The notes under the pieces: generated by a model
Databases searched by the model: none
Seen by the model: the letters and a program-made list of their open reading frames with translations, nothing else
Told to the model about the DNA's origin: nothing
Shown: positions 15,353 through 57,196 of the stretch, piece by piece
How positions within the stretch are numbered: position 1 is the stretch's first letter
How the letters are laid out: the number at the start of each line of letters is the position of its first letter
Program-made: the position numbers and the translations under genes
Assembly (NCBI RefSeq): GCF_022565475.1
Contig: NZ_JAIUMR010000011.1
Location: 1-64,000 of the forward strand
Direction: 5' to 3'
Length of the DNA: 64,000 bases
DNA from: Aliidiomarina sp.
Lineage (GTDB): Bacteria; Pseudomonadota; Gammaproteobacteria; Enterobacterales; Alteromonadaceae

Positions 15353-15441
15353 TCGCTTGACTCCTTTGTTTCACAAAAGTTTAGCACAACTCCTGCATTC
15401 TGTTTACGGGCAACATGTTGTAAACTCAAGGTTAAAGCGAA

Positions 15442-15674
15442 GCACCACGCGAGGTGCCCGAGCGACGTGAATGCGCTGCACGCTGAAAAGGCGGAGTACC
15501 ACGTGAGGTGCCCAACCGGCCGGTTTTCAGAGCGTATGCGGCATGGATGCCGCATCCGAGCCCCCATGGATGGGTTTACGGCGTCTATGAAAACCGGTCG
15601 GTTGGGTACCGGAAGTGGTGCGACAGCATTTAGCGTGCAGCGCTTCCGCGGTGCAGGGGCACCGGAAGTGGTGC
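15442..15674. repeat. palindromic repeat copy A: 62-bp core with about 86-bp inverted arms
   Basis: The core is at 15528-15589 (starts CAGAGCGTATGCGGCATGG, ends ACGGCGTCTATG). It is flanked by an extended imperfect inverted repeat: CCCAACCGGCCGGTTTTCA (left) pairs with TGAAAACCGGTCGGTTGGG (right). Each arm holds two repeats of 54-bp period: CCACGCGAGGTGCCC and CCACGTGAGGTGCCC on the left, ACCGGAAGTGGTGC twice on the right. It fills most of the 352-bp gap before galU. No gene was seen in it. Copies B, C and D are at 55.7-57.2 kb. Confidence 0.9.
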
Positions 15675-15704
15675 AACAGTATTTTAAAACGAGAAAGGTG
15701 AATT

Positions 15705-55684: not shown

Positions 55685-56030
55685 GAGCTTAGTGCCGCGA
55701 AGCCGCTTCCGCGCTGCATGCCTCGCGCGGTCAGAAAGCTGAGCTTTGTGCGTCGAAGCCGCTTCCGCGGTGCACGCCTAGGGGTGTCAGAGACGCCGTG
55801 AACCCATCCATGGGGGCTTGGATGCCGCATCCATGCGGCATACACTCTGCCACCCCTAGGCGCACACCGCTAGCGCTGGCTTCGAGCATGATGCTTACTG
55901 TTCTGACCGCACCAACCGTGCTTCGCTTACGCTGGCTTCGTTGCATTGACTGTATATCTCTAACCGCACCAACCGTGCTTCGCTTGCGCTGGCTTCGCTG
56001 CACTGGCTGTATATCTCTGACCGCCCGCTC
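55685..56030. repeat. palindromic repeat copy B with tandem arms
   Basis: The 62-bp core is at 55788-55849, inverted relative to copy A. Left arm: two tandem units of 56-bp period (from 55685 and 55741) containing CGAAGCCGCTTCCGCG. Inner arms CACGCCTAGGGGTGT and CCACCCCTAGGCG pair. Right arm: two units of 57-bp period (from 55906 and 55963, partial third from 56020), CCGCACCAACCGTGCTTCG, which are diverged inverted counterparts of the left units. It fills the gap between the phosphatase and thioesterase genes. No gene was recognised in it. Confidence 0.9.
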
Positions 56031-56123
56031 GCACACCCAAACAATTGACCAATCTTGACTAGTAACTTGCTTCTCGCCTAGCTAGAATTAAACGCATGTT
56101 TAAATTTCTAGGTGAAAGCAAAA

Positions 56124-56927
56124 ATGAGTGACGTGGCGAAGTTTTCTGACGTTTTAGCGAGTATTGACCCTGATGCAGAGCAAGAATTTGTGTTGCCGCA
56201 AGGTTGGGCACAGGGGCGTGCATTCTTTGGTGGTTTTTCGGCAGCGATCGCGTTTCAACATGCAAAACTCGGCGTTGATCTTGAGCAACCGATTCGAGCA
56301 CTAACCATTTCATTTGTCGGTCCGCTAGAACCTGGAACGGCCACTTTGCAACGCACCATTTTGCGTAAAGGTAAAAGCGTCACCCAAGTCCGCGTGGAAA
56401 TTGTGCAAAATGGCGGTGTGCAACTAAGTGGCTTATTCACGTTTGGCCGTTCACGGCCCTCGCAAGTCCGCATCACGGACACCTTACCTGCTGAGGTACC
56501 CAATCGTGAACACGGCTTGCCTTTCCCGAAAACACCCATTCTTCCTGAATTTGCACATCACTTTGACTACAGCGTCACGGTCGGTGGTTTACCGTTTAGC
56601 AACACCCAGTCGCGTCAATTTGGAGGTTGGGTACGTTTCTGTAACGAAGACACACCAATCGACGTCGGCCTCTTTCTTGGTCTCGTCGACGCTTGGCCAC
56701 CTGCGGTATTGCCGATGCTGAATCAGCCGGCACCTGCTAGCTCATTAACGTGGACGATCGAGTTCCCAGAATTATTACCGACCCACAAAAAAGCCACCGA
56801 CTGGTGGCAGTATGTTGCCTATATCGATTACGCCGCTGATGGTTACGGCCACACCCATTCCCACGTGTGGGACGATGACGGCAACCTCGTCGCCATCAGC
56901 CGCCAAACCATCACCGTATTCGCCTAG
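56124..56927 (+). CDS. Acyl-CoA thioesterase-like protein (TesB/4HBT_3 type)
   Basis: Start at ATG 56124 (MSDVAKFSDVLASID), with AGGTGA about 8 nt upstream; a GTG four codons earlier is less likely. The 267-aa product is a double hot-dog thioesterase-like protein: WAQGRAFFGGFSAAIAFQHA near residue 35, ALTISFVGPLEPGTATLQ, FGGWVRFCNEDTPID, and a C-terminal YVAYIDYAADGYGHTHSHVWDDDG. Substrate unknown. It is isolated between repeat copies B and C. Confidence 0.88.
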   Translation: MSDVAKFSDVLASIDPDAEQEFVLPQGWAQGRAFFGGFSAAIAFQHAKLGVDLEQPIRALTISFVGPLEPGTATLQRTILRKGKSVTQVRVEIVQNGGVQLSGLFTFGRSRPSQVRITDTLPAEVPNREHGLPFPKTPILPEFAHHFDYSVTVGGLPFSNTQSRQFGGWVRFCNEDTPIDVGLFLGLVDAWPPAVLPMLNQPAPASSLTWTIEFPELLPTHKKATDWWQYVAYIDYAADGYGHTHSHVWDDDGNLVAISRQTITVFA

Positions 56928-56931
56928 CTAC

Positions 56932-57063
56932 GAAGCCAGCGCAAGCGCTGTGCGATAGGCTGTGACAGAGTGTATGCCGCATGGATGCGGCATCCAAGCC
57001 CTCATGGATGGGTTCACGGCGTCTCTGACACAGTCTGTCGTGCGGCGCAAAAGCGGCTTCGAA
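56932..57063. repeat. palindromic repeat copy C
   Basis: Core at 56966-57027, same orientation as copy A, one base different from copy B. Arms: CTACGAAGCCAGCGCAAGCG on the left pairs imperfectly with the complement of GCGCAAAAGCGGCTTCGA on the right; GCTGTGACAGAG pairs with CTCTGACACAGT. It starts five bases after the thioesterase stop and abuts copy D. Confidence 0.9.
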
Positions 57064-57196
57064 GTTTGCGCGAGAGGGTTGGGCTGCGCGATGACAGAGT
57101 ATATGAGGCATGGATGCCGAATATAAGCCCCCAGGGATGGGTTCACGGCGTCTCTGACATCGTGTAGCCCAACCCTCGGAAGCAAACTTCGACGGC
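57058..57196. repeat. palindromic repeat copy D
   Basis: Core at 57095-57156, the most diverged copy but still exactly 62 bp. Arms about 37 bp: left TTCGAAGTTTGCGCGAGAGG then GTTGGGCTGCGCGATGA; right ACATCGTGTAGCCCAACCCT then CGGAAGCAAACTTCGAC. These are complementary to each other and unrelated to the arms of A or B. It ends at the purL stop and may also end convergent transcripts. Confidence 0.9.

Follow-up and report, generated by a model that had tools for sequence, protein, structure and literature searches.

Four short intergenic repeats in a 64,000-nt stretch of the genome of Aliidiomarina sp. (the window; positions 1 to 64,000 of contig NZ_JAIUMR010000011.1) share a core of constant length, placed between arms that differ from locus to locus and nevertheless pair with each other. 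This raises the question of what is inherited in such an element, how its arms arise and stay paired, and whether it belongs to a known family. The initial annotation of the window had located four 62-nt cores that start with CAGAG and end with CTCTG or CTATG, and the sequence confirms them at these places (Table 1). The covariance model R1 rests on 63 copies, those of the window included; in a scan of the window it gives only four strong matches, at 97-106 bits, which are copies A to D, and a weak one of 17.8 bits on the reverse strand of copy B. In the same way, 4 matches are obtained in the window when a 22-mer of the core is searched allowing 3 mismatches, vs 0 in 100 shuffles. Cores B and C do differ by a single base (98% identity over 62). 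The exact forms first quoted for the two internal palindromes are true for copy B, and the other copies deviate from them: copy A carries a compensated TGCGGC..GCCGCA, copy C carries CTCATGGATGGG and copy D, located 129 nt after C, has the pairs of hairpin 1 replaced by a tandem G-A mismatch.

Table 1. Repeat copies and their parts in the window.
Feature	Positions	Strand	Parts	Basis
Copy A	15508..15609	+	5' arm 15508-15527, core 15528-15589, 3' arm 15590-15609	R1 101.8 bits; fold z -7.95
Copy A, hairpin 1 loop	15543..15547	+	ATGGA (CsrA-type ANGGA)	Sequence; family loop statistics
Copy A, hairpin 2 loop	15566..15570	+	ATGGA, 23 nt downstream of loop 1	Sequence; family loop spacing
Copy B (inverted)	55768..55869	-	5' arm 55850-55869, core 55788-55849, 3' arm 55768-55787	R1 106.3 bits; fold z -7.51
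Copy B, outer arms	55685..56024	.	Direct repeats each side (55685/55741, 51 nt; 55902/55959, 57 nt)	
Copy C	56946..57047	+	5' arm 56946-56965, core 56966-57027, 3' arm 57028-57047	R1 100.6 bits; fold z -6.53
Copy D	57075..57176	+	5' arm 57075-57094, core 57095-57156, 3' arm 57157-57176	R1 97.3 bits; fold z -6.92

The arms are locus-specific and self-complementary, as described earlier: the 20-nt arms pair at 4/4 loci and continue past 20 nt with internal loops. Direct repeats are found within the arms of copies A and B. In copy B, tandem repeats with spacings of 56 and 57 nt lie in the two outer arms, which looks like parallel growth of both sides of the stem, and copy A (15434-15684) likewise has tandem repeats in both arms, with spacings of 54 and 53 nt. 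All four copies lie between long ORFs, in agreement with their reported intergenic location, and the only ORFs that overlap copies B, C or D are short (101-128 aa). The neighbours of copy A are a DUF6170 gene and a gene encoding a nucleotidyl transferase, presumably galU-like. Copy B is flanked by alkaline phosphatase and acyl-CoA thioesterase genes, while C and D together are flanked by the genes of a thioesterase and of a purL-like FGAR amidotransferase.

Two inner hairpins carried by a long outer stem had been proposed as the fold of the whole element, and both covariation and shuffle-tested folding support it. Each 102-nt element of the window is more stably folded than 200/200 of its shuffles (z -6.5 to -8.0). 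The core has a closing helix around two hairpins joined by a linker RAGYC, the second hairpin bearing a UUYAC bulge. The closing helix is CAGAG/CTCTG in most window copies; elsewhere it is CAGGG/CCCTG, GCGGG/CCCGC, TCGAG/CTCGA or others. Hairpin 2 has a base GCC/GGC that hardly varies (98.9% of cells), and hairpin 1 alternates between two forms, one fully paired and the other with the tandem G-A seen in copy D. The alignment A1 was derived from 104 distinct matches, reduced to 70 (7 were excluded by name, others as near-duplicates or for want of flank) and then to 63. In this alignment, made by MAFFT without structure from rows that were chosen by core similarity and from which the structure was also read, 82.1% of the cells are paired vs 58.7% after shuffling, and 612 cells show double changes vs 246 after shuffling, or 170-322 when the partner is slid by 1-3 columns. 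Double changes occur at 25/25 pairs of the outer helix. Pairing is indeed kept while the sequence of the arms changes.

The imperfect pairs of the arms indicate which strand folds. On the strand whose loops read ANGGA, G·U and A·C pairs occur in a ratio of 83:22 in well-paired copies and of 165:68 in all 70. Since an A·C on this strand would be a G·U on the other, and since G·U dominates, it is the folding of the ANGGA strand that has been kept. The sets used for arm composition were filtered with G·U counted as paired and lean towards G·U, and the ratios obtained without any pairing filter are 203:52 (set 1, 121 unique arms) and 157:68 (set 2, 108 unique arms). Set 1 uses 134/137 matches (two weak matches and a reverse-strand one that overlapped were left out), and set 2 uses 91/92 matches plus a further 34/34; the two sets share no locus, and set 1 includes copies of the Aliidiomarina genome itself (G000) that also enter the 70-copy count. 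The excess of G·U fits the folding of RNA and of single-stranded DNA alike. Selection for structure and inverted duplication around the core had been offered initially as two explanations of the paired arms. Both gain support, the former from this strand-specific G·U excess together with covariation, the latter from copy-like perfect arms or block replacement.

The repeats form a dispersed family, as first supposed, with many copies beyond the four of the window. A BLAST search with one core returns 18 matches in G000, 14 of them at E <1e-7 and 4 at E >0.2, and a match at E 0.001 or better in 22 of 58 relatives. Within the genus, 15/17 genomes have 1 to 15 BLAST matches each and none was found in 2/17. 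With R1, copies are carried by at least 59/147 genomes and at least 26/52 genera in a sample of the same taxonomic family, and by at least 32/398 genomes and at least 20/213 genera in a sample of the phylum; at most 27 and at most 10 candidates per genome, respectively, were scored in these samples, and copy numbers, perhaps presence too, are lower bounds. By a count of rows, the carriers of the phylum sample belong to one class only and to 13 families. Scored more fully, genome G120 contains 63 copies. An exact 25-base pattern finds 12 stretches among GTDB contigs, which come from Aliidiomarina, Alishewanella, Arsukibacterium, Amnimonas, one Aeromonadaceae genome and further Gammaproteobacteria. 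The Aliidiomarina-type core had no match in plasmids, phages or E. coli.

Some copies have a particular arrangement. In a congener, a tandem array of ~6 whole elements with a 174-bp period occupies positions 2630-3709 of L060, and same-strand series of copies also occur in L061, L062, L121 and L245. Another copy of G000 (G000:C15, L155 9897-9998) is enclosed by a perfect 21-bp outer inverted repeat, TAAAAGTGGCATGCGTATAAT, which looks like the ends of an insertion sequence or MITE.

Cores are homogeneous within a genome and arms are diverse. Identity of the 5' arm and of the core is 0.43 and 0.97 among the eight copies of G092, and 0.37 and 0.87 in G000. The arms of the G092 copies are complementary at 20/20 positions in 7/8 copies and at 18 in the eighth (L142), and L125:3367 runs on into a perfect outer repeat of at least 23 bp. 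Over 258 unique copies, positions outside the 20-nt arms carry at most 0.15 bits, and the arms themselves show composition bias only. For example, purines prevail in the outer half of the 5' arm (66-83% at -19 to -12 in 71 unique arms; more weakly in set 2, 58-78%), and position -3 is T in 51/71 unique arms. An AAGC internal loop of the outer stem, which seems conserved when the Aliidiomarina copies are inspected visually, carries no more than 0.13 bits per position on its side over the 258 copies. Arms are common to several copies in G015 and in G182/G029, so that unique and shared modes of arms both exist.

The comparison of G000 with its sister species G001 shows how single copies change. 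Copy C and the G000 copy at 95576 are absent at the syntenic places of G001, where the repeat-rich 95.5-kb stretch aligns poorly, and G001 has an orthologue of copy D. Between the two genomes, copy D and the copy at 96057 have 2 and 3 pairs changed on one side, and 0 and 1 changed on both. In 6/20 arm pairs of copy B and 10/20 of C9:21250 both partners have changed without loss of pairing, and along with these two-sided changes hairpin 1 has switched from one form to the other. Positions that fit neither class number 1 in D, 1 in B, 3 in C9 and none in 96057; B also has 1 one-sided change. Inner hairpins have been exchanged at fixed sites between the two species, and we read copy B and C9:21250 as probable cases of replacement. 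The empty site of a G092 copy was compared in four congeners: the gap is ~90 nt in G126 and G177 vs ~260 nt in G092, and a short TAAGTTAAC match there could be a faint sign that one outer arm is ancestral, at an identity of only ~72%. The stretches compared for empty sites, none of them near-identical, are 64-78% identical in one case and 73-94% in another. Hairpins are known to be both generated and preserved by template switching (PMC8794818), which would be the simplest source of perfect arms.

The loops of the ANGGA strand vary little. Among the 258 unique copies, 235 have ANGGA in both loops, 20 in one and 3 in neither, and the two loops are 23 nt apart in 213 of these 235; the counts come from model matches and lean towards the model. 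The SELEX consensus of CsrA is RUACARGGAUGU, and one dimer can span two sites separated by 10-63 nt, best at 18 nt (PMC3856055). Of the 235 copies, 134 have a T directly upstream of GGA in one loop and 130 in the other, so that over half of the loops depart from the consensus, which has R there. Concerning the features of CsrB/CsrC-type RNAs, GGA in hairpin loops and a spacing within 10-63 nt are present, and no sign of an own promoter or terminator was found in T-runs or flank conservation. On the 3' side, TTTTT occurs in 14/67 and AAAAA in 20/67, and since there is neither an excess of 3' T-runs nor any sequence conserved outside the arms, the element probably carries no promoter or terminator. 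Taking the carrier and CsrA samples as the same 398 genomes, CsrA is found in 32/32 carriers and in 220/398 genomes overall; by a count of rows, it is found in 104 genomes of the class or closer, and at least 20 genomes of the class are without it, with no carrier among those. This co-occurrence is a necessary condition only and is confounded by descent. Judging from their sequence, the ANGGA loops may bind CsrA.

The copies favour gene ends: where genes are taken as ORFs picked by length rather than from an annotation, and mixed-orientation clusters are left out, convergent neighbours outnumber divergent ones 40 to 19. Adjacent inverted copies are in the order minus-plus 25 times and plus-minus 2 times, so that the 5' sides of paired copies face each other. 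With the same ORFs, the ANGGA strand is antisense to co-directional neighbours in 36/47 clusters of set 1 and 27/48 of set 2 (63/95 combined). Antisense orientation was rejected as a general rule because the result of set 1 was not replicated in set 2; the bias of set 1 would argue against a CsrA site borne by mRNA, with the same lack of replication. The bias towards one replication strand is weak: local GC skew gives 37:23, and the distance from dnaA gives 73:48 for 121 one-orientation clusters among 150 listed of 164 matches.

The initial annotation pointed to RAYT or other Y1 transposases as possible partners, a link that gained no support. With carrier and Y1 samples taken as the same 147 genomes, of which 87 have Y1 matches, a Y1 transposase is found in 30/59 carriers vs 57/88 non-carriers. 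Furthermore, no match to it was obtained in the complete genomes G021, G120, G135 and G169, which contain 17, 63, 18 and 21 copies. Mobilization need not depend on a Y1 (IS200/RAYT) transposase encoded by the genome that carries the copies.

The explanation that we hold to be slightly better than an even bet is that these repeats are non-autonomous mobile palindromes, in which the 62-nt core is inherited, the arms are mainly copied, and the ANGGA loops are bridged by CsrA in RNA. The core would be the heritable unit, and copies would spread through a DNA or RNA intermediate, the cores being homogenized within a genome. The arms would arise and stay paired mainly because one is copied from the other, by template switching during DNA replication, and a selection acting on the ANGGA strand and tolerant of G·U would supplement this copying. 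The purine richness of the outer half of the 5' arm counts against pure copying of target DNA, which does not predict such a bias. The ANGGA strand folds as a three-way junction showing two CANGGA loops 23 nt apart. When it is transcribed, both loops could be bridged by one CsrA dimer, and the element would then be a decoy or a user of CsrA; the Ysr224 annotation, which lies on the complement of the ANGGA strand, counts against this step, as does the T in place of R in over half of the loops. A related reading, to which we give a rather low probability, is that of a selfish element at the tip of a hairpin: only the core would be inherited, the arms would come from fold-back copying of the flank upon arrival or from replacement of the tip of a hairpin already there, which would provide each copy with a perfect stem of its own, and CsrA would be recruited by the folded ANGGA strand. 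CsrA could then protect and deliver the RNA, or host regulation could be tuned through copy number. If true, this would tie a mobile element to the global RNA regulator of its host.

The same data could be explained by a palindrome that moves as DNA only, the single-stranded hairpin of the ANGGA strand being seen by a recombinase or nuclease and the likeness of the loops to CsrA sites being a coincidence. Perfect unique arms around near-identical cores, the lack of a carried promoter or terminator and the T found instead of the consensus R in over half of the loops would all be expected under this explanation. The mobility reported for YPAL (PMC2229807) and the outward order of paired copies (25:2) agree with it too, inverted dimers being the common form in REP families as well. 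However, ANGGA and one free base, a motif that CsrA needs in RNA, are kept in both loops of 235/258 copies, the replication-strand bias is weak by both measures, and the four complete copy-rich genomes lack a Y1 transposase. Coincidental loops on a DNA-only element are a rather unlikely account, albeit the one we would put next to the mobile palindromes bound by CsrA.

At the other extreme, the repeats could be small RNAs that serve the host as CsrA sponges, like CsrB/C, and that are selected rather than mobile. CsrA binding has been proposed for TwoAYGGAY (PMC4333381), and the two ANGGA loops 23 nt apart as well as the excess of G·U on their strand are what such RNAs would show. Their distribution fits poorly: there are up to 63 copies in one genome, and within the genus from 1 to 15 BLAST matches in 15 genomes and none in 2; copies are present or absent between sister species, one array repeats them in tandem every 174 bp, and no terminator signature accompanies them. 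Sponges kept for the host thus appear improbable, somewhat more so than the selfish hairpin tip. As for a recent segmental duplication within one genome, without any family, it could account for C and D, repeats 129 nt apart of which G001 has D only, and it is refuted by carriers in 32/398 genomes and 13 families of the phylum sample, which leaves it virtually no credit.

The repeats had not been recognized at first as REP, ERIC, Correia or attC, and this is right as far as these families were considered; attC was set aside on its general features only. GTAG-REPs, and REPINs with their RAYT, resemble the present copies in being short palindromes near gene ends that occur as inverted pairs. They were rejected since the copies have no GTAG tag, a larger three-way junction and no association with Y1. 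CGTC-REPs are defined by a stem of 8-9 bp with AT at the first two pairs, a loop of 4-5 nt and an unpaired CGTC tag. They were rejected as well, because the stems differ and the core has its CGTC partly within the closing helix and partly next to it. The novelty claimed initially is lost, since the core matches the catalogued repeat YPAL/RU-2, RF01731 TwoAYGGAY through related copies and, on the other strand, RF02770 Ysr224. The similarity of these sequences makes it close to certain that the window repeats are a lineage of a YPAL/TwoAYGGAY/Ysr224 superfamily, and a scan of the window against Rfam at gathering level gave nothing except one tRNA.

YPAL, or RU-2, is reportedly the Yersinia palindromic sequence of De Gregorio 2006, cited in Delihas 2007. 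A degenerate pattern made from the window core and one G000 variant retrieved L059, which was aligned with the window copies as a row of A1. The 63-nt core of the 168-nt RU-2/YPAL sequence published in a table of PMC2759123 is letter-identical to L059. This RU-2 core lies at 6223-6285 of L059, an IMG/VR contig, and is possibly on a phage or prophage. The review PMC2229807 describes YPAL as mobile, with target duplications of 3-26 bp and targets that span or adjoin dyad symmetry, deduces recent mobility from empty and filled sites, and reports expression with upstream genes ("co-translated"). The present repeats share with YPAL/RU-2 the core, the intergenic location, the palindromic form, the many copies and the presence or absence at orthologous sites. 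However, RU-2 is described as a 168-bp unit, whereas in G000 and G092 the core alone recurs and the arms are unique; recurrence of a whole ~168-bp unit was not found between the copies of G000 (arm 0.37 vs core 0.87). The repeats are therefore filed as a YPAL-type variant, with the same core and a different recurring unit. A YPAL-like stretch (83% identity over 126 bases) was also seen in 5/5,426 E. coli genomes, all from wastewater (NZ_CP022154.1 and four plasmid records), and plasmids of wastewater E. coli are a possible vehicle for its spread.

TwoAYGGAY, mentioned once, in a table, in Weinberg 2010, has two AYGGAY hairpins, a linker containing AAG and an outer stem on the same strand as the present repeats, while hairpin 2 and the outer stem are longer in the RF01731 model than in the window copies. 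RF01731 does not match the window copies even at E 1; with the G000:C9 copy it gives a full-length match of 34.1 bits, which is less than the cut-off of 43. Among 58 relatives, RF01731 has matches in 17, above cut-off in 6, and one locus of G018 is found by both models (RF01731 50.2 bits, R1 49.3 bits). Ysr224 differs in that its annotation lies on the other strand and gives it a different fold. Five R1 matches in G396 and G502, which would be Yersinia or close kin, overlap RF02770 on the opposite strand at 74.7-99.7 bits (cut-off 70), and copy B scores 20.7 bits with RF02770, below this cut-off. RF02770 and RF01731 look like descriptions of the two strands of a single element, and their merging or a revision of strand may be needed.

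A single search among open papers found none bringing together two of the names YPAL, TwoAYGGAY and Ysr224. What is new here is the unique and often perfect arms around a homogeneous core, the fixed outward order of paired copies (25:2), the copy-rich genomes without Y1 transposase and, as the sister species suggest, the replacement of inner hairpins. With cores that stay fixed and arms of their own, these long-stemmed copies constitute a natural set in which arm copying and compensatory selection are separable, and the family offers a concrete test of CsrA titration by repeats. TwoAYGGAY, so far an orphan candidate RNA, Ysr224, taken for a Yersinia small RNA, and the mobile palindrome YPAL are hereby joined in one family, which would change the annotations of two Rfam families.
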